Shown here: positions 22,548 through 59,700 of the stretch, piece by piece
How the letters are laid out: each line of letters begins with the position of its first letter
Numbering within the stretch: the first letter of the stretch is position 1
Origin: Liolophura sinensis
Taxonomy: Eukaryota > Mollusca > Polyplacophora > Chitonida > Chitonidae
NCBI RefSeq assembly: GCF_032854445.1
Contig: NC_088300.1
Coordinates: forward strand, 17,949,191-18,013,190
Direction of reading: 5' to 3'
DNA length: 64,000 nt
Made by a program: the position numbers and the translations under genes
The notes under the pieces: model-generated
Database searches by the model: none
Seen by the model: the letters and a program-made list of their open reading frames with translations, nothing else
What the model was told of the DNA's origin: nothing

Positions 22548-25500
22548 ATGTGTCGTCTGCTAAATCTATTTTGTCAACATCATGTATTGTTGTCTGTGAA
22601 AGTTTTGGTTTTCATCAGTTTATTTTTCTTGGGAGTACTTGGCTCGGAGACAGAAAGACAAAGAAGGTAACACCAGTCTGACATATTTATATTGTTTTTA
22701 TTGTTAAAGAGATGATCAGTTTGCTGAAAAAAAAATTTATAACTAGGCGTACGTAAATGTGTCTCGGTTGATCATGTAGATCTACTCTTTCACTTTTGTA
22801 GAATAATAAAAATAGAGGATATAGTTATTAGACTATTTGGCAGTGAATGATGAATGCTATAAATGTTTTTTCAAATAAGATATGGGCAACTGTAGCAGTG
22901 GATTGTATGCTTTTCACACTGACCTTGCTGTCCATTCTTGTATTTATCTACTTCACTGTATAATATTATTTTTATATATAGACCTATCAATTTATTATTA
23001 TTTTTTTTTTTTTTTGATTGGGGTATTATGCAGTGCTCAAGAATTGTGTTACTATAAATGAAAAGTTTTGTTTTAATAACATGATTTACATGTTATTGCA
23101 CATACCAGTAACCACATATGATGGAAAAAGCATGCAAGACACCATCAGCCAGTGTGGCAACAAAAAGGCAACAAATTTAAAAGAATTATTAATATCATAT
23201 TTAAAGAACTACTATAATATATATGATCAAGATGTTTCAAGGTATGACACATTCATGAAATTTAGCACCTACACTGTACCTTTTTTCTTGTTATGCTTAA
23301 CCAGTCATGGACAGGACTTCACTGTAGTACCTATGATCTATGAAAGTTACGTTTTCTATAGTACCACTTGTTGATTTTGATACTTTTTTTCCCCAAAATG
23401 ACAGTATGTGCTTATTAATAGGTTAGCCCAGAATTGACTCAGACAACACAGTACTGTATCATGGCTTCACTTTGACCAAATGTTATGTTTCCCATTCAAT
23501 CATGGCCCAGCCTCTACATGTACATATTATAAAGAGAACATTGCACCATGAAGTTTGAATATCACAGATCATGAGATGTTTGTTATGAACGATGAAAAGG
23601 AAACTCCACTCTACTCCACTTTTCAGTCGTCATTTGTCTCTGTCAGGAACAATATTGTTGCATGGTACCCGTGGTTAAACTTTTAATGCTGTGCAACATT
23701 TTTTTTTTTTCAGTTGAATTTATAAATAGATAGGTTATTTAGATAATGGGTTGTGTTTTGTTGACAGGAGAATTTACAACAAAATATGCTCTCTAAAGAT
23801 AGCTAGTTCAATAAAAATCAACATTAAAACCAAAGTTTTTCTACATTTCATTGTTATAAGATGCTGTGACATGGTCAGTCACAACACAGATGCCGTCCGT
23901 CACTGTATTAGGTCCTGGTGATAGACCGATATGTATCCCCTTGCAGGCAACCCAATGTGTGCAGCGATGACCCTGATAATCCATGTTGTCCGGGTTGGAA
24001 GATATCTGAAACGTCAGGACTTTGTTTAACAGGTAAGTTACCTGAACCATTTTATTAGTCTGCAGATCTATACATGTTGCTCTTTAGGTCTTAAATAAAT
24101 GAAATAAATTTTGCTAACCCATATGCATGCATACAGCATTGGTACATCTAGGCCATTGATCTTGCGAAGCATAATGAACTGGTACATAAATGTTCTATTA
24201 TCAGACCAGTTTGATATAAAGATCTGGCATTTGGCTCAGTGGTAGGGCATGAGACTTCAAACCAATGGGCAAAAGGCTCAATTTAATCCCCATCCTGGAC
24301 AGAATTTCTAGGTTACCCTGCCCCTATTGTTTGTAATGAATGTAAGCAAACCACAGCACATACATCTTGCATTCATGGAGTACTTACTTACAACATATTT
24401 TGTGTGCAAGCCTGTATGTTAAGCGTGGGAAAGGTCATGAGTAATTTGCCAAAGATTGCTGGTTTACTCTGAGAACCTTGGTTTCCTCCACCCGTAAACT
24501 TGATAACTATTATAGAAAGGAAAAATGCCCGAGTTTTGATCAGTAAATAAATGCATATGCTTATTATCACATGTACATGTATGGCTATCCCACAGATAAA
24601 GTATTCACTTGCATTTGGTATATTGAAATTAATGAGTAAAACTTACATGTGTAAACCAATAAACTGAAGAAAATGCTCATGTCAACTGCCAGTGATCATT
24701 TTTCAAACGCTAAGCAGAATTGAATTGTGACTAGAAAAGTGCATTTGCTTTAGAGGGGTTTTATGCAAGTATTTTATGCAATCTTTATAAAACAGTCAAT
24801 AAATTACTATAAAATATGTTTTAAGTTATATGTACATAATGAAAGAAGAACTAATGTGTAAAGATATCATGCAAGAGGCAACATTCTGTTCTTTTATCTT
24901 GGAATTCATGGACTAAATCTTGACATGAAATTGTGGAGGAAGGTTTTTGTATTTATTTATTTATTTGATTGATGTTTTACGCAATACTCCAGAATAGTTG
25001 ACTTGTATGAGGGCAGTCAACATTATGATGGGGTGAAACCGAGCAGAGCCAGGGGTAAACTCATGACCATCTGCAGGTACCTGGAAGACCTTCCCTGGTA
25101 TGCCCAGAGAGAAAGCCAACATGAGCTGGACTTGAACTCAAAGGGACAGCATTCGTGCCCCCACATGTTAACCACCTCAGCCGCAGAGCCCCCCACCCCA
25201 CCCCATCCCCCGATAAAACGGATTGAACAATGACAGGAAAAGCAGTTATAAAAATGTGACTCTCAATATTCATGGAAGTATATGTATGTGTCAACCTACA
25301 TTGTTAGCAGCTCAGCCAAAGGTCATCTCAGGCGTCGCAAACAGTAACACGAACATTGTCTTATATGACAGAAGTGTCTGTTGAGGTCAGCCAGCATCAC
25401 CGCTGCCATATATCTTCATGATGGTTGAGTTTCAAGGGGTTAATCTATTATGTAAAAAAACAGTCAACTGCAAGTCATAGCATTAAAGGTTCTAGTTGCT

Positions 25501-28500
25501 GTGAAAATCCCCAAAATGTAATTTTGGACAATCTGTTCATTGTGTTTTGTGGACTTTCTGTCAAATTGTAAATACTTGTGTGGCTTGTGTTACATTAGTC
25601 TCTGTTAGTGTATTCCAAATGTAAGTCATATTCCTGCCTAATTAGCAAGAATGTTAGCTGTATTCAGAGTACATGTACTTAGATATGCATTATTAGGTAA
25701 TAATGCATAATATCAAGTTCTGAGATGCTCAAGCAGTCACTAGATGTAGTTCACGTTCACATACATGTAGCGTAGGTGAACTGTGATCTGACTGCTTTCA
25801 TAGTTTCACTGTTTATAGGTGGCTGGTACTTACATATGCAATGGTATTTTGTCTCTGTCTACTGTTTTGGCAACAACCGTGGCCCCTGTGTTCTTTCTAA
25901 CGACTCTTCCATTACATGTATTATCTTGTGTATATTTAAAGACACTAAGACTAAGAGGTTGCTTGACTTGTACCATAAAATGACTAAGTACCAGCTTCGC
26001 TAAGGAAAACAGCTAACAGCCTAGTATCTTCGAGTACCATTAGCATGGCCTATATACATGTACTGTTGTTTCTTCTGAAATTCCTGTGTCTTGCGAGTCT
26101 GATGCATGATGTACACATGCATGTATGAATAGTTACTGTAATATTCTCATGTATTCTCTTGTGGACCTCTTGATACAAACTGTATGTAGATCTACCCTAA
26201 TTCTTCATCCTTTTCAGTGTCTTTGCAACTAATATTTTGAACATTCTGAGAGAACCATAGGGTGTAGGGAACTAATTTGCACATTTTCATCAAGCTTAAG
26301 CGAATCATGTTAGCATCATTGTGATAATAATTGTTTGCTTAAATTCATTGCAGCAAAAGTTCTTGCATATAAAGTTTAAATTTACATTCAGTGAATACCT
26401 CAGTGGAAGTTGAAACTAACTTTGTATTATAAAATAAAGAATTTGTAGTCATAATTGACTTCTGAAACTGGTCAGATGAGTCACACCCAAGCCAATCATA
26501 GTTTGTGTCAGATGTTGGTTTACTTGTAAGATTTGCTATCTTTGACTGTGAGTAGTACTTATCGGTTGATGATTCACACTGATCGTGACTTTCTCTGTTT
26601 CTCCATAGCTGTATGTGAAGATGGGTGTGGACAGGGAATCTGTATTGGGGCCAATCTCTGCCAGTGCCCCGATGGTTCATTGGCCAACTACTGTCAAGGA
26701 GATACCAAATCTGCAATAAGAGATGTGTCTGAAGAAAAAGCCACACTCCCTCCAGGTAAACTAAAAAAATTGTCTGTCAGAAAAGTAACATCTACAGTCT
26801 AGTTTTCTTCTTTGGCCCCCTTTCCCAAAATTTTATGTGTATAGATAAACAGGAAAAATTTTAAAATTTTGAAACTTGTCAAAAGGTTGATGGTTTCCCT
26901 CTGGCATTCCCCTTTTCACCCTGGCCATCATTGTAAGCAAAAAATTAATGAGAGTTCATTAAACAACAATCAGATATATAAATACCATTACATATTGAAA
27001 TTGGAAATGTTAAACTAAGTTATTCTCAGCCTTTTTCTACAAAAATGAAACTGTGTTACATATTTTACACTTTTATATGCAACAAAATTAACTGTACATA
27101 ATACACATACTTTCTAAATTCTGTTGTAATTGTGCAGGTTTATAAGTCAGGTATCAAGATTAACAGCTTCATTTACATACACAAGCTCACCATTGCTGAA
27201 TACAGATACATGTAACCTTTGTTTAAATAACCTATGTCCATGTGTATGTACAGATGACTTCCATCATATAAGTGAAATATTCTAGGTTACTTGTACTTCT
27301 TAAAACTCCTATCACATGAATAATTAATTCTGTCAAAAACTCGACACCTAACATATTAAGCTCTTAAGGGTGAAAACTTCTTGCCAGCACAGCACATCTG
27401 TCATGGTCAAGTTTTTTGTAAATATTTACTTTTTTGATGAGCATGTGTTTTATCCATTCGCATCTTCTGGAGGCCGTGTCAGGCAGCCACATGGAAGGGT
27501 AAAGGGAGAATTCCTGCCTGGAAATGACCCAGATCCCCCAGACAACCTGGCCTCACTCTCTGCTATCTGTTAACTCTAAACATACCAAACACACAAGCAC
27601 TAAAATTGTATACAATCTCCCAGAGATGGCTTTTTTTATGTTTTTGTCATTTCCTCATTCAAAAAGAAACCCTAAAAACAGGAACAAATGTTGTGCAAAA
27701 AGTAAATCAAAATGTATACATGTACATCTATATATTCTTATTGTCACCTTTATTATTGTAAATGTATCCGTAAATACAATATGTACCCAGTACATTTCAT
27801 ATAGTACATCCACCCACATGCATGATTACAAAATTTGAAACTTCAGGCGCACGTACATGTACTTTGCATCAACATCTGCCCAACCTGACCTTCAGGACCT
27901 TATGCATGAGGTTCCATCAGCATGATCTTGGTAACATCTTTGAATATAAAGGTCTGTTGATAAGATTCATGCAAATGTTCACTTTATCCAGTGACCCGCC
28001 ATTGGCAGTAGGTTACATTGTAATGTGTGAAAGTACATGTGGTGCTTCAGCAAAAGTGATGGGTATTAATTTGGTTCCATCCCTGTGGTGTAATAAGGTT
28101 CACTTGTCTTACATCAAATTTGAAAAAACAACGATATTCTCTTTGCAAATTTTTAATATTTAATAAATTTTCTGATTCCAACTACAGCGCATCCATTGGT
28201 TTCTGAGAAATAACTGCCGTAAATATTGTTGAGTTTGCTCATTTCTTGGTGGAGGTTCATTTTGTTTATCAGTGGGATGGGTGCATAATTTTTTTTTTAT
28301 ATTTAATGATATTTTCAGATGTTCAAGATCTATTTAGATTCAAAGACGCGACCTCATTTGTCAAGAGTCTTCATGGTGTTCGCAGCCAGTACTTTATCTT
28401 GTCTGTTTCAGTTAAAGGATTGAGGACTAAATCTGAAAATTATCAAAATAAATGAAAGAACTATTATCAGAAATTTTACACAATTTCCTCACTCGTGCCA

Positions 28501-31500: not shown

Positions 31501-34500
31501 CAGTCCATCTATGTTTTTTGTTCCATATGTTTAACATTCAAAATTCAGAATAAAAAGCCAACACTGTTTATGTTTGGCCACCTTGTTAAGTCTCACTAAG
31601 AGTTCGTAGGTCAACCTTCTGATAATTTTTTTTTTCAGTCAACAGACAGTCCTGTCCAAAGTATATGTATGGCTAACAAATTCCATGTGATGTAAAAAAG
31701 TACATGCATATCTCTGATAAGGCAAATGTTTTATTTCAAATACTTGTATTGCTACTGGCACATGCAGAGAGGCCCTATGCTGTTAATCTACACGCACTGC
31801 AATTTTCCTTCTAATTGCTTCAGAAACTGCACCATTGAATTATGCTCCATATATTAAGGCCTTGTACAAAAGGCAACCGTCCTTGTGTAGTGACTGAAAC
31901 ATGTATAAAGATTAAATGCTAATACAGGATATCCGGACTTGCATGTGCTTTAGATTGACATTTAAAGAACAGAGTAAGAAAGAGGAAATGCCTATAAAAT
32001 ATGAAGGAAATGCCTGTGAAATATTATTGTAAGAACAGTTGTACAGTGTGGTTGTAAACAATAAAACCTAAGCCATGAGTTACGACTTGTTAGTGTATCT
32101 TCTTAAGGTTAAGAGACAGCCACACTCAAAAATATTTCGAACATGCTGTCTGTTGAGTCTTCAAGTCTGAAAGCCAGTTCAGAGAGTTTCTTATACTTTT
32201 GTCTGTTGGACAACAGATGATTTCCTACTGGTTATGTAAATATATTTACTTATTTATTTGATGGTTGTTTAATTATATACCCAAGAATTTTTTATTTATG
32301 TGATGGCAGTCAATGCTATAAATGGAAACCTTCATGCCCAGGGTAAACCACTAATCTTTGCCAAATTACTGACCTCCCCATGTACACACCCTGATTGAAC
32401 AAATGTTAACATGTGTAAAATGGCTGCTTCTTGCCACTAAGTCCCCGTGATCAGTTAAAAGGTCAAAGGGAATTTACAAATTCCCTATCCAAGTTCGGGT
32501 TTGGACCCATACTTCATTCATCCTAGCTAGAAATATTGAAAAGGAAACTGTTTTGTTGGAAGTGATGGTGTAAGGGTCAACAAATTAAATAGACACAAAT
32601 ATAGATGCATTTACACATGTAAGCACTATTAAGTGTGGTCTAATTAGTAAATTAATACCTGTTTGTCAAGTCAACATGGTGTGTATGTACAGTGTATGTA
32701 AATCTCTGTTTATATCTCATTGCTAGCACTACTGTCTGTTCCATCTGTTTAATAGTACAGTTTCTGAGTCAGTCTCATAAAAAAATAAGAAAAGAAATCA
32801 GATAAATGAGAAAAAAAAGGAAAAAGCATTCTGTAGATATTTGAAAGAGGGAGTACCAACCTTCTAGCTAATGCATCCTTTAGTTTGGGCTATTTTGCAT
32901 TCAATTTTAGTTAGACTGAAGTCAGTCTTCAAAATGTATGATAAAATTAAAAGACATACATTTAGATTTATTGACTTAAAGTTGCACATGAACATAGTTG
33001 TTTGTATCTGGACTTTCATTTCTCTGCTGCAGAGTATAAGTATGACAAATCTGTGGCCCAGGGGAGGGGTCTTGGGTCAGCATCCAGCCAAGAATTCTCA
33101 GAGATTAGCCCCTCTTGTGAGGATCTGGGATGCCAGCAGAGATGTGATATGAGTGATGGCATCCCACACTGTAGCTGTGGTCCTGGCTACACCCTACACT
33201 CAGATGGCTTAACCTGTACTGGTAAGATATGTAAATGTTTAGCAATTAGCACTTAACCATAATGTTACATAGATACTTTTAAGCTTTGTTCATCATGTTA
33301 GAAATATGAACATGAAAATAAGGTATATCAATTTCTGTCATAAATTATTCCAATTTTATATTAAATAAAAACATACAAGCATGCTAAATTGAAGTTGGAA
33401 AAGTGGAAACTAGCAAGTAAACCTTTACACTCTGTTCAGAACTTCAGAGTCATAACAGGGTATGTTCTTTATCTCTTTCATTGGAAATATGTTACATATT
33501 TTTGTTATTGAGAAATGCCACAGAAGTTAAGTTTTTGACTGTTAAAACGCTAATAATGTTGTGCCAGGTCTACTGATTTATATATGAAGATGTATTGTCA
33601 GCGTATCCTCAGGTGCAAAGTGAAATATTTTATTCCATTGATAGTTTGCATTAGTGGTTGTTTACATACTATTTACTAAATCTCTCTAGAATTAACTAGG
33701 AAACTGTGAACAATAGCACAATACATCTGAACTTACATGTATTTGTGTGAAACAAGAAAATCTCTTTTCTTCTAAAGGATTCTATCAACTAGAATTCATT
33801 TGTGGAAGTAAAGATTTGGTATTGGTTTTTCTTGCAGTTTTATGTGTCCTAATAATATGTCCAATTAATACCATCTACCTCGCTTTTCATGCTCATGTTT
33901 TCAGTTGTAAAATGCCAAACCAAAGTCTTTACAAATACATACTAACTCAACCAGTTTTGAAAACACAACTACAGTACGTTAGTAATGAGGCATACTTCTC
34001 AATGTACAATGTGATGGATTTAGCTAATAAATTCTTATAAAATTGGAAGGCTTTCCAATCCCACATAGCCATAGAAATGCTGTAATTAAAAATATAAACA
34101 TAGAAAGATTTCAAAAACGCCAAAGTTATGATTCTTGACGATAAAAGAAGTTAAGAAAAGGACAAACATGCATTTTATCCAGACTTTCTACCCTCATTTT
34201 AGTCACCACAAATCACCTAAAAGGCATCTCTCAAAGACCAGAGCTTCGTGGGCTAGGCGGCCAATGGACTTGCCTACTATGGGCTGTAATAGTCTGACCC
34301 CTTCTTAACAGTTGGCATGATGCACTCCTGATATGCCTATTAATTATATATGTAAATACTTTTTCAGATGTTGATGAGTGTGTGCAGTATGCCCATATAT
34401 GCAGCCATAGTTGTCGCAATATAGCTGGAGGGTTTGTGTGTGATTGTCAGTCTGGGTACAGGCTTCATTCAGATGGGAGAACATGTAATAAGGTAGAGGA

Positions 34501-37500
34501 GCCTGTCACAGGTATGTATACATCTGAAAGTTTCTATGAGTGGCTGGGAGAAGGCAGTGGTCTAATTGTTGCTTGCCTTTCGATCGCAAAGACACATGAG
34601 ACGCAGGTTCAAACCTGGCTTCAGACAGAAGATTTGTAAATTCCCCAGCTCTCACTACATGTAGTGACAATAAGTGGTTTATGATGCTCGTGTATCCATT
34701 TGTCATTTGTATGGCATAGTTCATCAGTAACTTGCCAAAGATCGATGGTTTACCCTGCGTAATCCCGACTCATCCAACCATAATACTGACCCCCATCATA
34801 TGAGTGAAGAATTCTGAGTATGGCCTTGAACAAAAAGCATTTAATTTATGAGTAACCATGAATTCCTGTGGAATTTTGTCTGAAGTCCACACAAAATGCT
34901 TGCCTATTTTCTTTTTTGAAAACACACTTTTTTTTTTTTTACAGACACACCCTCCGCTGAAGATCCCTCTGCAGTTCCTTACCACTGGAGACAATATATT
35001 GATGACATGTTAGACCCTCATAAGCCATCACCAGAAGAACCAGCCCAGAGGGCCACCCAGCCAAAGATGAGCATTAAAGCCAGAGTAAGGACAACTAAAC
35101 AGAGGGGCATCCAAGAGCCATATGTACCTCCATCGGAAGGCACGGACACTCAGGACAGACCCTCATTTGTTGAGCATGATTCATCCAGACAACCAACGCA
35201 CCTTCACGGAGGCCATCCTTCATTACCACACCAGCCTGGCCCTGGCTTTAGAAGTGAAACATCTGGACATGATCCTTACAATCTGCCTTCACAGTTTAAT
35301 CCAAATGCTCGATATGAGCAGCTTCCTCCTGAGTTGACCAAGCAAATGTTTGGAAAATATGATCGCAAGAAGTTGGTTCCATTTGACTTTGAAGATCAAG
35401 AATATCAAGAACCATTTCGAAAGGGTGGTCCATCAGCAGAGGGACCTGGGTCAAGAGCCATATTCTGGGAAGAAATCCCAACTGACATTGCAACGACACT
35501 CACCAAAGTTACCCCCTGTGGGTCTGGGTACAACTGCCCTGATGCCTTACCTGAGTTTGCTGACCCTTCTTTCCAAGTACCTGATTTGGCTGATCCCTTT
35601 CTTCAGGCTCCTAATCCACCCCTAGAACCTCCTCCTGCTGTGATACCAATTGAAAAGCAGAGACTCGCAGACCGAGGCAGCTTGAACAAACCGCAAATCA
35701 AAACGAAGAAGGTGAGTCGACGAAAGGAGCATAGACCCAGGGGACATAAACATAGGAGGAGACACAGGAAGGGCAAAACTCGCAACAAGAAGACTAAAAC
35801 TGATAAAACCAAACCATCACCTTCTACTTACTTGAAGAAACCTACAACGTCAGCTTCTAACAGTAAAAGCAAGTTGGACGGAGAGCAGTGGCAGAAGGAT
35901 GGGAAGGCTTGTAGAGGAGACTTGTGCTATTTTCCTGAAGAGTCTGAGGAAGAAAATGTAACACCATTTGGTGTTGTTCAAACTGATGACTTTGGTCAAT
36001 GTCCAGAGGGATTTGAACTTTTGATTGTGAATGACTTTCAAGTATGTAAACCACTCGCAGAGCTTGCAAGATCCCGAACATTTCCAGCTGCTCTTCCTAC
36101 AATGTCTACCACTCCGCACCAGACAGCTAAAGAGACTGGCAATAATGTAGATTCTGACATAGCCATTGACTTGGAGAGTGAAGTAGAATCTGTCAAGTCT
36201 GTACCATCAACACGACCTCCATTTATCAACTTCTGCGTAAAAGAAGGCAAAATCATGATCATTACAGCAAAAGGGATACACTGTAAACACAAATCTGAAG
36301 AAAACATATTTGTTGATTGTGAAGAACATGAAGTCTATGTGGAGACTGTAGCTGGATATATTTGCAGGGATCCCTCAACAGAAGATATCTTGTCCACCCC
36401 TATCCAGTGCCCTTCTGGGCACACCTTGATAAAGACCAACACTGGGTATGAATGCAGAGGAACAGTGGTTCTGGAATCATCCTGTCCTGAAAACTATGAA
36501 ACTGTGCAAACCATGTCAGGAACAATATGTAGCCCCTCATCTCCATTTACGTCCACAGGAAAGACCACTTGTCCACCAGGTACAGTCCTAACAGAATCTG
36601 AGAAAGGAACCGAGTGTCTCCACATAATAGATGAACTGTTAGCAGCAACAACTGTTGTATCAGATGACCTTGTCACAACGGACCATCCCAGGGAGTACCC
36701 TATAGGGCTGCCTCCTAAACCAGATGTGCCCACCACCTCACCTGTACCTGACTTAACAACTGCGTCCATACTTTGCCCACCTGGTCAGATCGGTGTACAA
36801 ACTGACACAGGTCCTGTTTGTAAGTACTACACAAAATTGGAGAGAGGCAGAGGAGATCTTCCACCCTTTTGTCCAGAAGGAAGGACAATGATGAACACAG
36901 AGTCTGGACTACTCTGTATCGGAGCTTCAGTAATGGTCGAGTATGATGGACCAGTTACACTTTTATACAGTGAAACAGAGGAATCAGGCCCGAATATCTC
37001 ACCTTGCCCAAAGGGACAGGTTTTAGTTAGCACAGAAGATGGGGAAAAGTGCCAGGACCTCCAGCGCCCATTTGTTTTACCAACTGATGATATACTACTT
37101 GTGCGAAATGTTTGTCCACATGGACAGGTTGCCGTTAACACATCTGATGGATCTGAGTGCCGTTGGATTGGCATAGAGAAGGAAACTGGCCCTGAGCCTC
37201 TATGTCCTGAAGGGTGTTCAATCCAGCAGACTAACTTTGGATTGCTGTGTATTAATGACACCACAGGTGAGCCTGCTTTAGATGGTAACTTTTCCTGTCC
37301 TGATGGGCAGATAGCTCTTTTCACTCCAAAGGGCAGTATGTGTAAATCAGAGGGTGTCATTGTTGGGAAAATATTAACTGTTACTGAGATAGATGACCTT
37401 CAAACAGAACCAGGATGTGGTTTAGATAACCTTGTGTTTCAAACACTGGCTGGACCCCTCTGTCTAGATAAAGTGTCTAGAGAACCTGTGATTCATGAAG

Positions 37501-40500
37501 AGAAAATCTGTCCTGACTCTGAGCTTGGAGTACTTTCTCCATCCGGTGTTGTCTGCAAGCTGAGATCAGACATTTTGCTTTACACTTTGACGTGGGGTTC
37601 TTGTAGTATTGGACAAACAGTTGCAGCAACAGAGGCAGGATCTATATGTGTATATCAGGATACCAAATATCCTGTGTTTGATGACAGCATACCATGCCCC
37701 GATGGCCAGGCTCCAGTTGTGACACCATCTGGAACATTTTGCAAATTGAGATCAGCCATAGTGACTTCATTTGAAGAAACGGATGCATCAGGAGGATGCC
37801 AATCAGGGCAGACAGTTCTGGAGACAGCAGCAGGTGCCATTTGCATCAACAGTGAAACGCTGCTCCCAATTATCGATGAAAGCATTTCGTGTGCTGAAGG
37901 ACACGTGCCAATTGTTACCCCAGGAGGGACATTCTGTAGACATCGGTTATCGTTACTGACAAGACTATCAGAGAAACAAATATATGCCTGTGCTGATGGT
38001 CAGACGATTGTGGAAACAGAAGCTGGGGCCATTTGTATCCATAGTGAAACTCTGGAACCAGTCATTGATGAGAGTGTATCGAGATGTCAGAATGGCCAAG
38101 CAGCTGTGGTTACGCCCTCAGGGACTCGGTGTAAGCCAAGATTATCCATTTTGACAAGATTGGTTAAAAAACCAAAAGGCGATATTAAGACTGAAACAGA
38201 AATTTCCACTCATTCTTGTGTTGAAGGACAGAAAATTCTTGAAACAGAAGCCGGAGCAATCTGCATCCACAGTGAAACACTACAACCTGTGATTGATGAG
38301 ACTGTATCTTGTATAGATGGGCAAACCCCTATTGTAACTCCTACAGGAACTTTATGTAAACTTCACTCTGCAATACTTACCAGGTTAACTGTAGATGAGA
38401 GTGATAAGCATGAAATTTCTACAGAATTTGAAACACTGTCATGCAGTGAGGGTCAAGAGGTTTTAGAAACAGCAGCAGGTGCCATCTGCATTCATGGAGA
38501 AACTTATCAGCCAGTCATCGATGAATCATTGTCTTGTCCTGATTCTCAGGCACCAGTTGTTACACCTGCTGGAACTTTGTGTAAACTACGCTCATTAATA
38601 CTGACACCATTGTCGGAAACACAACTACAAACTTGTGCAGAAGATCACAAGGTTTTAGAAACAGATGCTGGACTAATTTGTATTCATAATATGACTTTAC
38701 AACCCATTGTTGATGAAAGGGTATCATGTCCAGATGGTCAGGCACCTGTTGTGACCCCAAATGGAACATTGTGTATCCTTCGTTCTGCAATTTTACAGAA
38801 GCTCCCTAAGGTTGAAGGACCAGTCTGTGAAGGACATCAGTTGCTGGAAACAGAGGCTGGGGCTGTTTGTTTTCATAATTGGACAATGCAGCCCATGATT
38901 GATCAAGACTCTGTTTGCCCAGATGGACAGATATCAGTTCTGACCCCAACGGGTGCATGCTGTAAACTTCACACTGCAGTCCTAACAATTTTAAATGAAA
39001 ATGGCACTTTGACAACACAATCTCCTGTACCATCTTGTGACGAAGGCCAGAGAATATTGAAAACAGAAGCAGGCATTATCTGCATTCACACGAACACTTT
39101 ACAGCCAGTTGTTGATGGACGTATAACATGCCCAGTTGATTATACACCTATTATCACACCAACAGGTTCGGTTTGTACTCGTCATTCAGCTATATTAACA
39201 AGACTGTCCGAAACAGGAACTCTATTTTGCACTGAAGGACAAGATATTCTAGAAACTGAGATAGGTCCCATTTGCACACAGGGTGAGATATCAAGGCCCA
39301 TTGTTGACCACAGCTTGTCTTGCCCTCAAGCAGAAACACCTACTGTAACTCCAGTGGGCACGGCATGTATGCCAAGTTCTATCATAGAAGGACTTTTAGA
39401 ACAAACAGGTGAAACAGGTAGTTGTGGTATAGGAAGAAGAATACATGAGACTGAAGGAGGTCTGATTTGTGTAGACAAAGAAACTGATCAGCCAGTGATA
39501 GATGAGGGCATGTTCTGCCCTGAGGGACAGGCAGCCGTTGTGTCTCCAACAGGAACGTTTTGTATGCTTCATGCCATTATCTATGGTCGACTGTCAAGAA
39601 TACCTGCAAAAAGCACTTACATGTCCATGACGACTCCATCAACACCGGAATCTTGCCAAGATGGGCAATTTGTACTTCAGACAGATGCGGGACCAATTTG
39701 TGTTTATGTGGAAACCCAGGATGCAGTTGTGGATGTGACCGTATCCTGTCCAGATGGACTGTTGCCAGTTGTGGCACCATCAGGGACGTTCTGTTTGCTG
39801 CAGACAAAAATATTTGCAAAGCTTTCACAGCTATCTGTCAAAACTAACGATTCATTCTCTGAGAACATGGTGAATGTTACTGAGGAAGAAAATGCTTGTG
39901 GTGAAGGACAGAGAGTTCATAAACAGAAATCACAAGAAATATGTGTTTATGAGGAAACTTCAGAACCAGTCTTAGATTTTAGCATAACTTGTCCTAAATC
40001 TAAAATTGCTGTATTGACACCAACTGGATTTGTCTGCAAGTCACAGAGGTCAATTTATGGTAAGAAGAAGTTTGTGAGTGAAATCACAAAATCAGCAATG
40101 GAGGACAATGACGTAGATGAAGTAGATAGAGAACTTAGTTGTGGCTCTGGAAGCAAAGTGTATCAGACTGAAGATGGATTAATCTGTATTGATACAGAAA
40201 CAGAAGAGCCAATATTTGATGAAAGTGTAACCTGCCCTGATAGCAAAGTGCCATACGTCACACCATCCGGCACAGTTTGTAAACTAAGACTGCGTGAAAC
40301 TGATGCAGAAGCATCAAGGAAAGACAGATTTGAAGAAGATTTAGCAAATACATGTGGTGATGGCCAGAAGATGCTTTCAATCAGTGCTGGAGTCATTTGT
40401 GTCCATGAAGATTCTCTGGAGCCCGTTATTGATGAGTCAGTGTTTTGTCCACAAGGCAAAGTAGCTGTACGGACACCATCAGGTACATCTTGTAGATTAG

Positions 40501-43500
40501 AGGAAAGAATTTTTGTGACCAGCACTACTGAATTTACCACGCTAACCACTGCTGAAGCCACCACGCCCACCACTGCTCAAGCCACCATACCCACCACTGC
40601 TCAAGCCAGCACACCCAGCATTACTGTATCAACCAAAAGCACAGTACCCACATGTCCACTCGGTGAGAAATTAGTCATTCGGCAAAATCAGTACATTTGT
40701 GAGATGGAACAATCACTAACAACACAGACCACTATTTCAGAAGCACCAACATGCGGTGAAGGACAGATTGTTGGGGAATCTGAGCTAGGGATGGTTTGTC
40801 TTTATCATCACTCTCTTAAAACTGTCATTGATGAACAGGTGGAATGTGATCTAGGTGACATTGCTGTTGTAACCCCTCATGGAACTGTGTGTATGTTGCG
40901 AACTGTGATATTAAAAGAGTCTGCACCAACGACACCTCTATCAAGACCAGCACCAGCGCCAGCACCTACTGCAAGTGTTCCAATATGCCCAAGAGGACTA
41001 ACTCCTGTGTTGAGAAATGGACAGTTTGTTTGTAGACATGTGATTGTGAGCAAAGCTAATGTGGAACCTTCCACTGCTCGCCCTGAACAAACAGAGAGGT
41101 GTGATGTGGGTCAAAGGATTTACCTTACGTCTGTAGGTAAAATTTGTGTTCAAGAACACACATTAGAGCCAGTAATTAACAGATCTGTGAGCTGCTCCAG
41201 TGGTGACGTGGCTGTTTTTACACCATCTGGAGTGGCTTGTAAAAACAGGACAGCTATCTACCAAAGCTTGCCAAATCCAACAGAGGCTCCAGAAGTGACA
41301 GAGACCTATCCTGATGTTGATAAGGGCTGTCCAGAAGGTCAAGTGGTTGTGTCCCACAATGGTCAGTTAATCTGCAGGCCAGATGATGAGGTGAACACTG
41401 GAGGTGAATGTCCTCCAGGATATCAAAAAGTTATGATTGAAGGTTTAACAGAGTATCAATGTCAGTATGTTGGTTTTAGTACAGACAAGGGCTCCAGGGA
41501 AGCAGAAAGGAACTATGAGCGGAACCTTAAGTGTCCATTTGGGCTTGTTTTGACGCATACGCCCAATGGGCCAGCATGTAGATATCCGTCCAAGACAAGT
41601 AGGACTGCTGGAACTGGTGCTGATGATCTACCAGCAGGAGCTAATAATATTCCGGACAGTAGTTTTATACCACCAGTAGTTACAGATCGAGGACAGCCTT
41701 GTAGTGGAGGAACAAACTGTGGAGGTGAAAACACCAGGCCACATGGTCAGACTGTCACATGTCCAGAGGGTGTGAACTGTGTTGGCTTCCGACCTGGTGT
41801 CCATGTTCCGGTGGCCCCTTGTTTGCAAGGAATAAACTGTGCTGTACCTGTCGTAAGGACACCTGTGGTTAGCTCTGGGTGTTTCAACGGAATTCAAATC
41901 GCCAATGGTCAGCCTTGTGCTAGTATGCCTGGAGTCTTTCCTCAACTCAGTAACACACCATGTGGATCAGGATCTAACTGCGGGATTCCTTGCTCTACTA
42001 GTAACTGCCGTGGTGGGGCTGTGGTCCCACCCATGTACAATGGTTGTGGGAACGGAGGCACTACTGCTGGAGGGTGTGGTATCCAACCTAGACCATCTTA
42101 TCCCTTTTCTGTCACGCAATCCTGCAGCAATGGGTTTCAGCCTTATCAAAGAGGGAAAATTTACATGTGTGTTCCACTGAAGATTCAGGGGTTATGCGGC
42201 AGTAACGTAATGCTGAAGACCCTCCTTGGTTCAGAGAGGTGTAATGGTGTCCACCAAGCAGTTCCTCCTCATCGTTCCATCACTCCCTGCACTCTGAATA
42301 ATGGCTACCCTATCACGGGCAAGTTGTCCTCTGCCTGTACCCCACTAGACGGCCTCACGCCTGTTGAGGGAGCTGAAGGAGTGTGTAGAGCTGGAGAGCA
42401 GTTGTTTCAGTCAGCTAGAGGTAGGACTGTGTGTCTCCCTGTCTCCTCAATTGCTGCTACATCAGCTCCGGAGGTACAGCAGGAGGCACTCCCTACATGC
42501 AGAACTTCAGAAAGGCTGGTGAAAACGGACAGGGGTTACATCTGCCAAAGATTGCCCTCCTCAGGATGTAACCCAGAGTGTGCAAATGGAGGGACCTGTG
42601 ACAATGGGGTGTGTAGGTGTCCCAGGGGGCTCTCAGGCAGCAGCTGTCAGACAGGTGAGTCTCCCAGTTCAGTGTTCTGAGCAATTTTATGGTAGTTACA
42701 TGTACAAAACAACCTCTTATTTCACAAATTCAGATGTAACTTCATGGGCAAGAAATCCAGCCACATCTACAAGTAAAAAACAGACAACATCATTTCTGAA
42801 AACAATTGTCAAGAAATTGTTTTACATAAATTTCTGAAAACATACATCAATGTAGCTATGTTTGAAGTGTGTGTGATACATAGCTGATTATAAGCTAGAT
42901 GCGAGTACATATATATACATATACTCAGTGGAGGTATTTTAGTGTATTTACGTGCCTACCAAAGGCAAGTAGTGTATATTTATGCTAAATAGTAATTAGA
43001 GAATGGTGTCTTTGGTAGATTTTATTTCACAAAAGGTGGAATGCAACGACTTGAAACATGCTGAAGCTTTATTCGTTATTTTCTTTTACAATTTGTTTAC
43101 AGATATTGACGAGTGTAAACGTCTGCCAGAGAGACACTGCCATTACAAGTGTATGAATGGGTTTGGTAGTTACAGATGTGTCTGCCCCACTGGCTATACA
43201 CTTAACGCAGACAGGCGCACATGTAAAGGTAGGACGTCTGAACACATCATGGATAGGAGAAATGGCATGATTAATATTAACCCTACAGCTTCAAATAAGT
43301 AATAAACATGTTCAGCCTACATGTAGTTGATGGCATCATGCAATGCTGTTGAAGCTATTACAAGTGACAAAAGTCTTCATAAGGGAAGGCCGATGAAGAA
43401 GGCTATGGTTTTGGTTGAAGTTAACTGCAGTAATTTGATAAATGATTTTGTATGTTCAGACCTAGCAAATTATTAGGTTAACATTTATATAAGCATTGAT

Positions 43501-45983
43501 CATAAATTATTTGATTGGTGGCCAGATTAAGCTGGGGACACACTTGGCAGATTTCTTCGCTTGTAAGGATGAACTTAATCACCTGCGAAATATGCTGATG
43601 ATATTGGCAGCATAGTTGCAGACACACAAGGTGGATATATCCATTGATGGGGATCAGTGGGTTATGTCATGTGACCTAGTAAACCATGTGACACAAGCAA
43701 TATTTCATAGTTCAACACAATTCCATTTTGTTTGATGAGTCAGCTCAATTGCAGAAATTCGCTGGAGCGCACGCACTGAATGGACAGAGTGAAATTACCG
43801 GTGTATTTCTTCGCTAGTATCTGACATATTTGATACAGGCGAATTTCGAGGCAGACAAGATCGCCAGCGAAATACACCGTCGCCAGTGCGGACACACTAG
43901 GTGGATGTTCAGAAATTAGCTAAATACACCTGTACAAGGCTAAAAAGCCGTCAAATTTGTAATCAGCTTGATGGTGGGAGGAAACCAGCCAGATTATGCT
44001 TGTTGCTAATGTATAGGAATATGTGTTACTTGTTGCTAATGTATAGGAATACGTTTTTTCCAGCAATAAGATGCACACCAGAGTGTAGAAATGGTGGCAC
44101 TTGTGTGGGAGGAGTGTGTAGATGTACTGCAGGCTTCACAGGAAGGCAGTGTGAGATCGGTAAGGGGAGATTTGCGGCACTGCTTTCTGACAGGGTTTCT
44201 TTTGTCCAGAGAGAGAATTTGTCAGATAATTTTTTTGGCAAGAAGGCAGCTTCAGATCAAAGGATTTTGCAAAGGGTCATAAAGGAAGCATTTGTGGCTA
44301 TTGGTCAGAAGCAGGTCACCCACAGGAGGAAGTAGTAGATCCTTGAGAAATACAATGCAGATATAAATAGTGATAGAGCTTTTAGCATATATTATATTGC
44401 TCGTTGCCTAGTGTTTGCTGGTATGGCGTTAACTAACAAATACATGTACTTTATTTGACCTCTGATTTTCCCCAACTGTATGAAGCTGTATTTTAGAGGC
44501 AAATAGATGTTGTAAAACATTACTTGTGGTGTGGGACTTTCCTCTCTGAGGGTATGATCCTGCCTACCTTCTAAACAAACCTCATAACACCTTCATAAGA
44601 TCAGTTGGACTCTCAGAATCAGGCAAAATGAGTAAGTCATGGATGGAAGTCAATTACAGTAAATAAAGATTGTCTGGTGTGTGCTGTTTCAGATGTGGAT
44701 GAGTGCTCTGGGAGAGAGGGCTTATGTGAGTATCAGTGTCGTAACACAGTCGGAAGCTACACCTGTGTGTGTTCTGCAGGTTCCCGCCTCAGGGAAGATG
44801 GCAGATCTTGCGAAAGTAAGTGCTATAGAACTAGTACCAGGAATTTCAGCCTCACCAAACACATTGTACATGTGTTTTCACAAAATCTATATTCATATGT
44901 AGTACATTGTTTTCACCTCATCTAGCATCATGTACCTAGTTTTCAACCACATGTGTCTGTCATGTGGTCAACGGTTTTTACACCCGTCACTTCGGTTTAG
45001 TTCACCTGTAAACCTTACCCTCATTGTATAAGTAGAAAATTCTTGAGCATGCTGTTAATCACCAATTAATCAAACAATTAGCCTCACCAATAGATTGTAC
45101 ACGCACCTCATTTTCAACTTCACAAAGAAGTTTTCAGCCTCGTCCAACACGTTATTTTCAGTGTTTTTCAGCTCCACCTAGCACAGTTTCCCCCTTTCTT
45201 AGCCTCATCTAACACATTGTTTCTCTGCGTTTTCAGCCTCACATAACACATTGTAACTCCTTTTTTAGCCCCACCTATTGACATAGTGTTTAGTTTTCAA
45301 CCTCACAGGAAAACACTGTATGATCTTTTCAGCCTCAACAAGCACATTTAGTACATTGTTTTAGCCTCAGCTAATTTACTGAATGGTGTCTCTGTGGTAC
45401 TTATCTTTCAGGACAGAGCTGCATGCCTTCATGTCAGAATGGAGCCACTTGTAAGGACCATCGCTGCTTCTGTGCCCCGGGCTATTATGGTGTCAGCTGT
45501 CAATTAGGTAAGATATTTAATCAGTCTGATTTGCCATTAAAATATTTTGAATTTTAAAATATAATGCATGATTTGTTTGAGTGAGACAATGACTGAAATA
45601 TTATTATGAATGTTTTATGTTTATGAAGATAACCCTGTCCGTTGACTGAACCAGTTTAAAGACAACCAAACAATTGTAGATTTAAGAAGCTAATGCATTA
45701 AGTCAGTAATGTTATAATGTGATGCTTCATTCTCGCACACATGATGTTTCAATTTTGACTTGCTTAATTTTTGCTTTCAGATATCAATGAATGTTTCCAC
45801 TTCCGACCATGCAGTCACCTGTGTCACAATACCAAAGGTAGTTATGTCTGCGCCTGTCGATCTGGATTCCGATTGGCTTCAGATGGTCACATGTGCCTTC
45901 GGAATCCCTCACCAGAGAGCCCCACCAGACGCAGACGAAGACCCAGAACCACACGAAGGAGAAAAGCCACAGCATTAGGGTAG
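22548..45983 (+). CDS. Giant secreted matrix protein: fibrillin-type N-terminus, about 50 two-Cys repeats, EGF/cbEGF C-terminus (about 3012 aa)
   Basis: Exons: 22548-22666, 23947-24032, 26609-26755, 33033-33221, 34368-34511, 34945-42654, 43103-43228, 44064-44159, 44693-44815, 45412-45507, 45781-45983. The sum is 9039 nt. Intron 1 is phase 2 and all others are phase 1, which is typical of shuffled extracellular modules. Residues 1-32 form a signal peptide ending FFLGVLGS, followed by a furin-like RQRR at 37-40. Residues 41-115 match the fibrillin unique N-terminal domain plus first EGF in every cysteine gap (NVC-x7-CCPGWK-x7-C-x4-C-x3-C-x4-C). EGF modules follow in exons 4 and 5 (DVDEC). Exon 6 (residues 229-2798) holds linkers, a basic stretch, an RGD between cysteines, the repeat array and a Gly/Cys-rich part. 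Exons 7-11 alternate cbEGF (DIDEC, DVDEC, DINEC) with plain EGF and end in an Arg-rich tail. No fibrillin TB (8-Cys) domain is visible. It is likely an extracellular matrix structural protein; function is inferred. Confidence 0.88.
24225..24570 (+). mobile_element. tRNA-derived SINE with A-box-like head
   Basis: The head 'tggctcagtggtagggc' fits a tRNA A box, and a decayed B box ('ggctcaatttaatcc') follows. The body continues with 'ccaaagattgctggtttac' and a short aaataaat tail. It is too degenerate to be a tRNA gene. Confidence 0.6.
24950..25195 (-). mobile_element. SINE, inverted, nearly full length
   Basis: It begins with the inverted tail 'tttatttatttatttgattg', then 'acgcaatactccagaatagt', 'gaccatctgcaggtacctgg' and 'gttaaccacctcagccgcag', the inverted tRNA-like head. 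It is a diverged copy of the family at 49535-49775. Confidence 0.7.
30590..30740 (+). mobile_element. SINE fragment
   Basis: 'tctcacatgtgggaaagttt' followed by 'ccatagtataattataaaa' matches the body of the SINE at 60270-60625 ('cacatgtgggaaagttcttc ... ccatcgtataattgaaaaa'). Head and tail are decayed. Confidence 0.45.
32240..32530 (-). mobile_element. SINE, inverted, diverged
   Basis: 'ttatttatttgatggttgtt', 'acccaagaattttttattta' and 'ccactaatctttgccaaatt' are in the order expected of the inverted SINE. The head is represented by 'gttcgggtttggacccatac'. Confidence 0.5.
34530..34850 (+). mobile_element. tRNA-derived SINE just upstream of the giant exon
   Basis: A B box 'GGTTCAAACC' occurs at about 34607-34616 after an A-box-like 'gtggtctaattgttgc'. 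The body includes 'cttgccaaagatcgatggtt' and 'aaccataatactgaccccca', then 'gagtgaagaattctgagta'. It lies in intron 5, about 100 bp from the giant exon's acceptor. Confidence 0.65.
34945..42654 (+). other. 7.7-kb single coding exon of the matrix gene
   Basis: The acceptor is 'ttttacag' at 34937-34944 and the donor 'ACAG|gtgagt' is at 42655. It is open for 2569 codons with phase-1 ends, so it could be skipped without a frameshift. Order: Pro/charged linker (35000-35500); the first PCGxGxNC motif (about 35515); basic stretch (about 35697-35820); C-RGD-L-C (35910-35927); two-Cys repeats (36000-41579); Thr-rich linker (about 40520-40645) inside the array; Gly/Cys part with four more PCxxGxNC-type motifs (41690-42060); two last two-Cys repeats (about 42380 and 42500); EGF module (42565-42654). 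An exon this long is rare in animals. Confidence 0.9.
36000..41579 (+). repeat. Protein-coding array of about 50 two-cysteine repeats (C-x2-G-x5-T-x2-G-x2-C)
   Basis: From residue about 581 to 2440 I count 51 segments of the form C-x14-C with Gly at the fourth place, Thr about tenth and Gly thirteenth, for example CPDGQAPVVTPSGTFC and CADGQTIVETEAGAIC. Three (near 40650, 40985 and 41410) are imperfect. Between about 37602 and 40503 the segments alternate in two types. Type A is C-x-EGQ-x2-LETEAGAIC, followed by IHSETLQPVIDE. Type B is CPDGQ-x-PVVTPSGT-x-C, followed by KLRSAILTRL. This makes 14 A/B pairs averaging about 69 residues. Early and late copies are more diverged. I do not recognise a named domain; mollusc lustrin-type Cys repeats and ephrin-receptor-like CPxG modules are only loosely similar. 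Confidence 0.9.
43532..43900. mobile_element. Possible MITE in matrix-gene intron 7
   Basis: The left end 'ctggggacacacttggcaga' and right end 'ccagtgcggacacactaggt' are imperfect inverted repeats, and both are followed internally by 'ttcgc'/'gcgaa' words. GC content and CpG differ from the flanks. The arms are poorly matched, so this is tentative. Confidence 0.4.
44840..45375. repeat. Degenerate tandem repeat with acceptor-like words, matrix-gene intron 9
   Basis: The phrase 'ttttcagcctcacctaacac' followed by 'attgt' recurs with changes about ten times at irregular 35-60 bp spacing between the exons at 44815 and 45412. A SINE tail remnant interrupts it at about 45000-45075. Each unit contains a polypyrimidine tract and CAG, so each resembles a 3' splice site. 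Confidence 0.6.
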
Positions 45984-49998: not shown

Positions 49999-50385
49999 GA
50001 TATCGGTGCTGTCTGCTTGTGGGCTTGTAAAAGACATTTAGCTGCTAAAGGCCATATTTAACCAATTGTCCCACAAACAACTCATCGGTGACTTGAATCG
50101 GTGCTGCCTGCTTTTCGGCTTGTAAAAGATATTTAGCTGCTATAGGATGTATTTAACCAATTGTCCCACAAACAACTCGTCGGTGACTCGAATCGGTGCT
50201 GTCTGCTTTTCGGCTTGTAAAAGACATTTAGCTGCTATAGGGTGTATTTAACCAATTGTCCCACAAACAACTCGTCGGTGACTCGAATCGGTGCTGTCTG
50301 CTTGTGGACATCTAAAGGACATTTAGTTGTTATAGGCCATATTTAATCAATTGTCCCACAAACAACTCGTCGGTGATTCGAACCC
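49999..50385. repeat. Tandem repeat, about 95-bp unit x 4
   Basis: 'atcggtgctg(t/c)ctgctt' recurs at about 49999, 50097, 50192 and 50287. Each copy is followed by 'gacatttagctgctat' and 'ccaattgtcccacaaacaac'. It lies outside any gene and has no coding frame. Confidence 0.85.
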
Positions 50386-56792: not shown

Positions 56793-59700
56793 ATGATGTC
56801 TGTGCCACTGAGGAAAACTTTGACACCAATAGAGAATTGCCAGTTTAGAAAACAACTTCAGAACCTTATCTTAAGGAATTTCATCCCAGGTGGTAGTGCA
56901 AATTACCCACGATGCCTCAGTGGTATGACAACGAGATTGAAAAGACATCCCTGTGCGGTGAATGACCAGCCATGCATTGTGCGCTCGCTCCAGGATTCTG
57001 CAACTTCTCCAGTTATCTCCCATAATAATATCATTCGTAGTCGTCAAGAAGATGTTGAGATTCCCAATGTCTCCCTTGTGGAGTATATATTCTCAAGGAT
57101 TGACTCCCATCGTCAAGATTCCATTGCTTTGGTAAGTATCAAATTGGTTTGCATTCAGTATTTGTGGCATTTGAATTTCGAGAAATTTTTTTCATGTCTT
57201 GTTAGTTAGACTCACTTTTGTGGGTTGCCCATTTTTTTTTTATCTGACAGTTCCAGTAATATCTGGATTAACTTTCTAAAATAACTATACTGGCCCATCC
57301 TTCACCTCTGTTCTCTGCTGTTACAGTATCATGCTACAACTGGCCCATCCTTCACCTCTGTTCTCTGCTGTTACAGTATAATGCTACAACTGGCCCATCC
57401 TTCACCTCTGTTCTCTGCTGTTACAGTATAATGCTACAATTGGCCCATCCTTCACCTCTGTTCTCTGCTGTTACAGTGTAATGCTACAACTGGCCCATCC
57501 TTCACCTCTGTTCCCTGCTGTTACAGTATAATGCTACATCTGGCCAGTCCTTCACCTTTTTTCTCTAATGTAACAAGATAATGGTACATCTGGCCAGTCC
57601 TTCAACTTTTTTCTCTAATGTTACAAGATCATGGTACTACTGGCCAATCCTTCACCTTTTTTCTCTAACGTTACAGGTTAATGGCACATCTGGCCAGTCC
57701 TTCACATTTCTTGTCTGTTGTTCCAGCTTAATGGTACAACTAGCCAGTCATTCACCGTTGTTCTCTAATGTTCATAGGACAGTGGTACAACTGGCCAGAC
57801 CCTCACCTCTGTTCTTTGCTGGTACAGGTTAATGATACACCTGGCCAGTCCTTCACCTCTGCTCTCTACTGTTCCAGGTTAATGGTACAACTGGTCAGTC
57901 CTTGACCTCTGCTCTCTAAAGTGACAGGTTAATGGCACAACTGGCCAATCCTTCACCTTTGCTCTCTACTGTTCCAGGTTAATGATACACCCGGCCAGTC
58001 CTTCACCTCTATTCTTTATTGTTCCAGGTTAATGGTACAACTGGTCAGTCCTTGACCTCTGTTCTCCACTGTTCCAGGTTAATGGTACAATTGGCCAATC
58101 TTTCACCTCTGTTCTCTGCTGTTCCAGGTTACTAGTACACCTAGCCAGTCCTTCACCTTTGTTCTCTTATGTAACAGATTAATGGTACAACTGACCAGTC
58201 CTTCACCTTTGTTCTTTACTGTTCTAGGTTAATGGTACAATTGGCCAATCTTTCACCTCTGTTCTCTGCTGTTCCAGGTTACTAGTACACCTAGCCAGTC
58301 CTTCACCTTTGCTCTCTTATGTAACAGGTTAATGGTACAACTGGTCAATCTTTCACCCCTGTTCTCTGCTGTTCCATGTTACTAGTACACCTAGCCAATC
58401 CTTCACCTTTGTTCTCTTATGTAACAGGTTAATGGTACAACTGGGGAGTCCATGACATTTGCCCAGCTGAAAGCATCCGTCAGGAAAGTTGCCAGTGCCC
58501 TGACAAGGCTGAGGTATAAGAAAGGTGACTGTGTGTGCTTGTTCTCACCCAATGTACCCGAATTCTGCATTATGTTCCTGGCGGTGTCTGCTATTGGAGG
58601 TATTGTGACCACAGCAAACCCGCTCTATAGTGCAAGTAAGTACAGTACAGACCGCTTCAGTAAACAGAAATAAGCGAGTATTTTTTTCTGTGCTAGTGTT
58701 CGCCTATTCCATCAGCGGGAGGATGTTGGAACATTGTAAAGGCCTGGATGTAATGATGTGTTATTACAGTTACATGTAATTTCATTACATTCACCTCACA
58801 TTTCACTTGTGCTGTACATAAATGTAGACTGTAAATACCGTGGAATGAATCCCTGGTATAGGAAAAATACCAAAATAAACACCAAAGCTACAGTTTCTCT
58901 GATGAGATCTTGTGTGTTGGGGAGAAGTTTGATTTTTCAATATCGATACTGAATAAATATTTGCATATACTACATGTAGTAGAAGTAAGGCCCAAAATTC
59001 TACACCCAGATATGGCTGATGATACATGTAGGCCTATACACCATCCAGCACGTTGTTTTATCAATGATCCTAGGATTGTTAGTTCACTGATAATCTTTTT
59101 TGCATTTTGCTACATGTATGCAAGTATTCATGTAATACAAAGAGCATTGGCAAACAACTGGACATGAATACATAAATCTGCTGATGACAGCTTATATTAA
59201 TTAACAACCTGTGTTTTTGCTCAGAGGAGCTTGCTCAACAGCTTAAACACTCTCAGTCTGTGGCTGTGGTTACAAAGGAGGCTACTGCAGACCTGGTGAA
59301 GGAAGCCTGTGCCTCTCAGACAGCTGTCAAGGTAAGTATACCATTTGCTAGTGTAAAATTAATTGGTTCAAATGAGCACTGGAACCTGTACTGCTTGAAG
59401 ACAAGCTTCGTTATTATTTGTTTGATGATGTCTGTAATTCAAAAAATTTAGTTGTGTTCGCATTCCCACTGCTTCAGAGTACTTTGCATAAAATTCCCTA
59501 AATGCTGAACAGTGCGGAAGGATATAGCAAGATGATCAGTGTTAAAGTCTCAGATATTATACAACTTACACTTGACTCATCAAATGAAAATTGGATAAGA
59601 CTGGTTTATTTATTTAAGATTGCAGCAAGTCACATACCTTTGTTCTGTTGTCATTTGACTCTGACAAGACGATACAAAAAGTCGCATCATTTGAATGTAG

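Follow-up and report, generated by a model that had tools for sequence, protein, structure and literature searches.

A two-cysteine repeat array and its probable place in a fibrillin-related matrix protein of the chiton Liolophura sinensis

A stretch of 64,000 nucleotides from the genome of the chiton Liolophura sinensis (contig NC_088300.1, positions 17,949,191 to 18,013,190; hereafter the window, in whose coordinates features are given) contains a long array of small two-cysteine repeats within a single plus-strand open frame (34920-42677, 2586 codons). We assign a probability of roughly 0.62 to the reading that this array is the middle of a secreted, fibrillin-related extracellular-matrix protein. 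According to the predicted exons, the N-terminus would consist of a signal peptide, a furin-type site, a fibrillin unique N-terminal (FUN) domain and an EGF domain resembling the first one of fibrillin (EGF1), and the C-terminus of short EGF domains alternating with calcium-binding EGF (cbEGF) domains, followed by a basic tail with an RxRR motif. In place of the TB domains and long cbEGF rods of fibrillin, the protein would carry a module with four cysteines and roughly 50 residues that has no name and is repeated 18 times. Each module is predicted to fold into a pair of beta-hairpins, A and B, in which a disulphide probably closes each hairpin; variable linkers would connect the modules, and the array would be flanked on either side by single hairpins.

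The repeat family is real. A six-frame search of the window for C-x2-G-x5-T-x2-G-x2-C gave 28 exact matches, all of them in the array frame. A relaxed pattern, C-x14-C plus two or all three of the landmarks, occurs there 43 times, whereas 1000 shuffles of its residues gave 0.154 on average and never more than 3. The initial annotation, made from the sequence alone, had counted 51 segments fitting the pattern; this number holds for a loose count of two-cysteine segments in 36000-41579, of which only 28 fit exactly, 14 show two landmarks and 6 show one, while 3 depart from the x14 spacing. Thirty-six of the 51 segments form 18 A/B pairs (37194-41276), rather than the fourteen reported earlier, with the spacing C-x14-C-x15-C-x14-C and small length variants. 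The gaps between neighbouring pairs range from 15 to 86 residues, and the two longest each contain one single segment (40653 and 40986). Ten further single segments make up the N-terminal part of the array (36000-37160), and three end it (41328-41579). With shared cysteines excluded, mean identity was 0.40 for A-A, 0.45 for B-B, 0.22 for A-B and 0.23 for comparisons among single segments. The difference between within-class and between-class identity (0.135) was reached by none of 1000 label shuffles (maximum 0.037), and therefore A, B and single segments represent distinct classes, as the proposed A/B alternation implies. Besides the four cysteines, whose invariance in the 18-row pair alignment follows from the selection of rows, one Pro and one Gly do not vary.

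An AlphaFold (AF2) model of the A/B pair, based on the 18-row alignment, reached a mean pLDDT of 87.6 and a pTM of 0.70 and consists of two beta-hairpins (strands 8-13, 16-21, 39-44 and 47-52) plus a short helix. For two tandem pairs, modelled from a 12-row alignment, these values were 79.6 and 0.43, and the residues between the pairs (59-65) fell below a pLDDT of 50. Judging from these models, folding seems to take place at the level of the four-cysteine A/B pair, which resembles a single small domain, and successive pairs appear to be strung flexibly, not fixed with respect to one another. The earlier idea that each C-x14-C closes a small loop agrees with the model insofar as there is one hairpin per segment, but the folded unit appears to be the pair, and the closing disulphides are putative. 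Similarly, of the long flexible rod that had been envisaged, the flexibility stands, but beads describe the models better than a rod, as seen from the lower pTM of two pairs and the low-confidence linker. Two cysteines per segment was the search criterion and by itself is not evidence of pairing. However, 102 of the 104 cysteines in frame residues 361-2220 belong to the 51 segments, so that there are almost no orphan cysteines in the array; since single segments also stand apart, a disulphide inside each segment is favoured, and each hairpin is probably closed by its own. One point counts against this structural picture: the linker disorder in a model with 12 rows may come from the shallow alignment.

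The array is under purifying selection: nonsynonymous divergence (pN) was below synonymous divergence (pS) in all 153 copy comparisons, with means of 0.39 and 0.73, respectively. The initial annotation had taken the central copies to be recently amplified and the outer ones to be older. The fraction of identical codons where two copies share a residue (0.433; 1565 of 3611) was compared with 300 sets in which synonymous codons were resampled from the frame's own usage (0.391, standard deviation 0.012, maximum 0.423). As the observed value is near the redrawn level, silent sites are nearly saturated, in central as in outer copies; the central copies are therefore not fresh duplicates, and their likeness has been kept by selection on the protein. 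Even the most alike neighbours (1100/1175), which are 71% identical, agree in only 15 of 40 codons, a fraction close to the redrawn mean of 0.39. Hence, the repeats look old and selectively maintained, which contradicts the proposed recent amplification. Somewhat at odds with a uniformly old array, the codon identity is slightly above all 300 redrawn sets, and the adjacent pair 1239/1303, the sole outlier of 17 adjacent comparisons, keeps 19 of 28 codons, a number reached by 1 of 500 redraws; some copies may thus be younger. That the array is a recently expanded, weakly constrained coding repeat without domain function, as its tandem layout and the identity of up to 71% among central copies might suggest, is very improbable in view of the near saturation of silent sites, pN values below pS throughout, the invariant Pro and Gly besides the cysteines and the confidently predicted fold. 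The saturation test also illustrates that alikeness among tandem protein repeats need not imply recent duplication.

No credible relative of the repeat appeared in the Pfam and PDB libraries searched, in line with its earlier description as an unrecognised family. Under E 0.01, Pfam matched the giant frame only with a teneurin-type EGF at the 3' end, a match that did not reach the cut-off of that model, and searches with the 18 pairs and 18 single segments at E values up to 10 gave scattered single matches only (best 0.044 and 0.076). Of the checks that had been proposed, a Pfam comparison assigned no named domain to the segments, and structure prediction gave two beta-hairpins for the pair. 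In the PDB, searched by sequence and by profile, array matches to HTRA2 (E 0.12-0.71) and the one match of the pair profile (E 0.58) were taken as chance. Lustrin-type repeats, with which the segments had been compared, are also cysteine-rich repeats in a molluscan protein; however, no Pfam Lustrin match was listed for frame, pairs or single segments at E values up to 10, with filters that drop most matches above 0.1. In the chiton's own genome, strong protein matches were confined to the array gene, in searches that score the best candidates only and may miss weak relatives. Of the weakly matching paralogue candidates, the one on contig C13 (E 1e-4) turned out to be a tandem repeat and the one on C11 (E 0.0018) has 12 stop codons inside; both were rejected. 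There is also a weak match at C8:13587192 (E 0.1). The titles and abstract openings of the literature on chiton and molluscan fibrillins, lustrin and fibrillin evolution contained no description of the repeat, but subscription papers lie mostly outside this survey and we do not claim that it is undescribed. A module of comparable style is DPY of Drosophila Dumpy, which has about 21 residues and is placed between EGF domains. According to a passage in PMC2930355, it is a small module multiplied in a huge EGF-bearing matrix protein. The array likewise multiplies a small module in what is probably a large EGF-bearing matrix protein; in contrast to DPY, it is uninterrupted by EGF domains and its unit has about 50 residues, a distinction drawn from description rather than from sequence.

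The segments could alternatively be degenerate EGF domains, in which the C-terminal C5-C6 hairpin was left after loss of the N-terminal loops and then multiplied in place, an origin that we consider plausible, although at less than even odds. Segments and EGF domains have in common a C-x2-G bend and a two-stranded hairpin with a Cys at its end. When 45 C5-C6 hairpins of the chiton's fibrillin locus were scored with a profile of the 54 segments, they ranked higher than 28 other cysteine loops taken from those frames (area under the curve (AUC) 0.946) and higher than 756 six-frame cysteine loops (AUC 0.921). However, against 70 six-frame loops also possessing Gly at position 4 the AUC was only 0.758, and this is the fair figure because the EGF set had been chosen with Gly at this position. 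Moreover, the EGF hairpins reached 10.9 bits at most, compared to a segment median of 24.5 bits. Foldseek presents a similar situation: the best PDB match of the A/B pair model was an EGF structure (EMR2), with CD97 third, but EMR2 scored only E 0.87, probability 0.20 and TM 0.32, most other top matches were unrelated (e.g., Hfq), and none of the 209 matches had E <= 0.001. Segments differ from EGF domains in having two cysteines instead of six and a longer hairpin, and there was one Pfam EGF-type match (E 0.36) among the 18 pairs and none among the 18 single segments. The hairpin is therefore similar to EGF C5-C6 and possibly of EGF descent, but descent is not demonstrated.

The gene around the array was modelled by splice logic and comprises eleven plus-strand exons, from 22548-22666 to 45781-45983; the spliced frame is open from ATG to stop and encodes 3012 amino acids. 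Nine of the ten introns are in phase 1 and the first is in phase 2, and therefore the EGF exons following the FUN exon as well as the giant exon are 1-1 modules. The first coding exon (22548-22666), one of two candidates in a scan for hydrophobicity and a phase-2 donor, encodes a predicted signal peptide and, once spliced, RQRR at its end; its donor, gtaaca, is weak. An earlier phase-1 scan for signal peptides had given four starts, none of which was used. The spliced product hence opens with a hydrophobic stretch that is followed by RQRR and, after it, PNVC...CCPGWK. This last motif, with four Cys, belongs to the FUN exon (23947-24032; Pfam Fibrillin_U_N, E 1.5e-4, 22.1 bits, cut-off 26.2), and the next exon (26609-26755) encodes an EGF domain like fibrillin EGF1 (EGF_FBN_1st, E 0.0014, 18.6 bits, cut-off 26.7; best PDB match fibrillin-1, E 0.029). 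When both exons were joined, the best PDB match was fibrillin-1 (2m74, E 3.2e-9), ungapped over residues 2 to 57, with the next match at 0.037. Furin-type R-x-[KR]-R motifs occur near both ends, RQRR at residue 37, which depends on the predicted exon, and RRRR at 2995-2996, which lies within an arginine-rich tail. In a survey covering 78 fibrillins from 39 organisms, the two terminal domains are reported to carry furin motifs and to undergo processing at furin sites, and only processed fibrillin-1 is said to enter the matrix (PMC3306419). Taken together, the predicted signal peptide, the putative processing of the termini and the fibrillin-like head are suggestive of a matrix protein that uses its ends for assembly.

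Several observations weaken the fibrillin connection and the gene model behind it. Singly, FUN and EGF1 each stay under the Pfam curated cut-offs. Among the 11 places listed by a genome-wide FUN search, the window exon came only fourth (19.8 bits, E 0.66). Of the three that outscored it, two do not belong to the fibrillin locus; the top one (C8:8792728, 38.7 bits) belongs to that locus, whose FUN exon was not retrieved with the window exon as query. The FUN call thus depends mainly on the joined match and the adjoining EGF1. Furthermore, the exon joins come from splice logic, not cDNA, across introns of up to 6.3 kb, and the signal-peptide exon, and with it RQRR, was picked from two candidates after the earlier scan in another phase. 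At another FUN-like place (C8:19434820), the 9.9 kb fetched contained no plus-strand frame with C-x-C-x2-G or CC-x-GW.

The longest interval in the model, 6.3 kb between EGF1 and the next exon, also bears on whether there are two neighbouring genes, a short one with the fibrillin-like N-terminus (22.5-26.8 kb) and a second one encoding the repeat protein. The size of this gap, in which terminal exons were not searched for, and a model made without cDNA would allow such a split, but the junction shares phase 1 with the adjacent ones and, after joining, the frame remains open through 3012 codons, making two genes improbable.

A single gene encoding a fibrillin-related protein thus remains preferred, but it should not be classed as a fibrillin. 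The domains of fibrillins are FUN, EGF, TB, hybrid and tandem cbEGF, the latter in runs of about 40. The chiton gene shares with them a predicted signal peptide, furin-type motifs close to the two termini, a four-Cys FUN domain with EGF1, and cbEGF domains. In contrast, a PF00683 search, which can miss weak matches, found no TB domain in the window, nor did the Pfam scan of the giant frame; only four EGF_CA matches over the cut-off were obtained among the ten pieces scanned and long tandem cbEGF runs were absent from the array gene; and no cysteine follows the last EGF of the spliced product, unlike the fibrillin C-terminal unique domain with its two cysteines. The same genome harbours a separate TB-bearing fibrillin with its own FUN exon on another contig, C8, where all of the 12 PF00683 matches over the cut-off, among 13 listed, map to 8.80-8.88 Mb. 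By sequence, the array gene would therefore be a second, fibrillin-related gene. According to the published survey, the sampled molluscs possess a single fibrillin (PMC3306419).

Downstream of EGF1, an EGF-like exon in phase 1-1 (33033-33221; cEGF 26.1 bits, just under the cut-off of 26.6) and a cbEGF exon (34368-34511; EGF_CA 41.6 bits, cut-off 27) precede the giant exon of 7710 nt (34945-42654, phase 1-1). The latter has splice consensus at both ends and an open frame and, on this prediction rather than cDNA, accommodates the whole array in one exon, as the initial annotation had it. At its 3' end lies a teneurin-type short EGF (42567-42653; EGF_2 24.2 bits, cut-off 22.1). It is followed by a cbEGF exon (43103-43228; 41.1 bits), a short EGF exon (44064-44159; EGF_2 26.2 and EGF_Teneurin 25.4 bits, both over cut-off), a second cbEGF exon (44693-44815; 34.3 bits), another short EGF exon (45412-45507; EGF 26.5 bits, cut-off 21.5) and the last exon (45781-45983), which combines a cbEGF (34.6 bits), the arginine-rich tail with RxRR and an in-frame stop. 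EGF exons thus flank the array on both sides, and the EGF domains and predicted signal peptide agree with the secreted EGF-bearing protein initially proposed.

How such a protein might work can be sketched only conditionally, and this extends to its disulphide pairing, secretion, assembly, mechanics and tissue. A furin-type protease would trim it at its ends, and association could proceed via the fibrillin-type N-terminus and the EGF domains. The array would act as a long, disulphide-hardened, jointed and therefore extensible spacer. Ahead of it, a highly basic cluster (35706-35807) is a candidate heparan-sulphate-binding stretch and CRGDLC (35910-35927), an RGD between two near cysteines, a putative integrin-binding site; a second RGDL at 36849 means that this motif occurs twice near the array start. 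These elements might tie the protein to glycosaminoglycan and cells. More speculatively, an ancient four-cysteine double-hairpin domain could have replaced TB and cbEGF domains in a second molluscan, perhaps wider spiralian, fibrillin-type lineage, yielding a microfibril-like fibre whose middle is made of jointed, extensible stapled hairpins instead of a calcium-stiffened rod; we put this forward tentatively, as a rather doubtful extension.

Chitons have several mineralised tissues, and "fibrillin" is named among the structural proteins of Cryptochiton radular teeth (PMC6351634), so a matrix protein associated with biomineral in the shell plates, sclerites or radula might be considered. However, the Cryptochiton protein is known here by name, not sequence, and may be the TB fibrillin; Asp and Glu together reach at most 36 per 200-residue window, leaving no very acidic block at that scale; and no chitin-binding domain was listed in the Pfam scans of frame and exon pieces. 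We therefore regard this assignment as unlikely.

In addition to its TB-bearing fibrillin locus, the chiton thus has a second gene in which a fibrillin-like N-terminus is combined with a different middle. If confirmed, the fibrillin-related matrix protein would provide a home for a repeat domain unnamed in the libraries searched, allow one to ask in a natural system which parts of fibrillin are enough for assembly, and supply a candidate for chiton matrix work.

Additionally, we noted several minor features in and around the array. C-x5-C mini-loops lie between it and the C-terminal EGFs (41697-41981), with another at 35517 beside the main array. Three degenerate segments (42123, 42384 and 42498; within 42123-42545) extend past the 36000-41579 interval. 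The linker after pair 16 contains a Thr/Ala-rich 24-base tandem repeat (40536-40617), for which O-glycosylation is a guess. Outside the predicted exons, further tandem arrays were located at 1356-1787 (unit of 76 bases), 15117-15780 (40), 50002-50382 (95), 57289-58451 (50) and 62993-63404 (78). On the minus strand, an open frame at 2273-2752 reads, by eye, like the N-terminus of an isoaspartyl peptidase/L-asparaginase. COX1 of this genome gave, by eye, a sensible translation under table 5 but not under table 9, which argues against an echinoderm. Elsewhere in the assembly, contig C99 has seven COX1 matches about 15.5 kb apart, with one more on C632; the pattern corresponds to mitochondrial genomes placed head to tail and is probably an artefact of the assembly.

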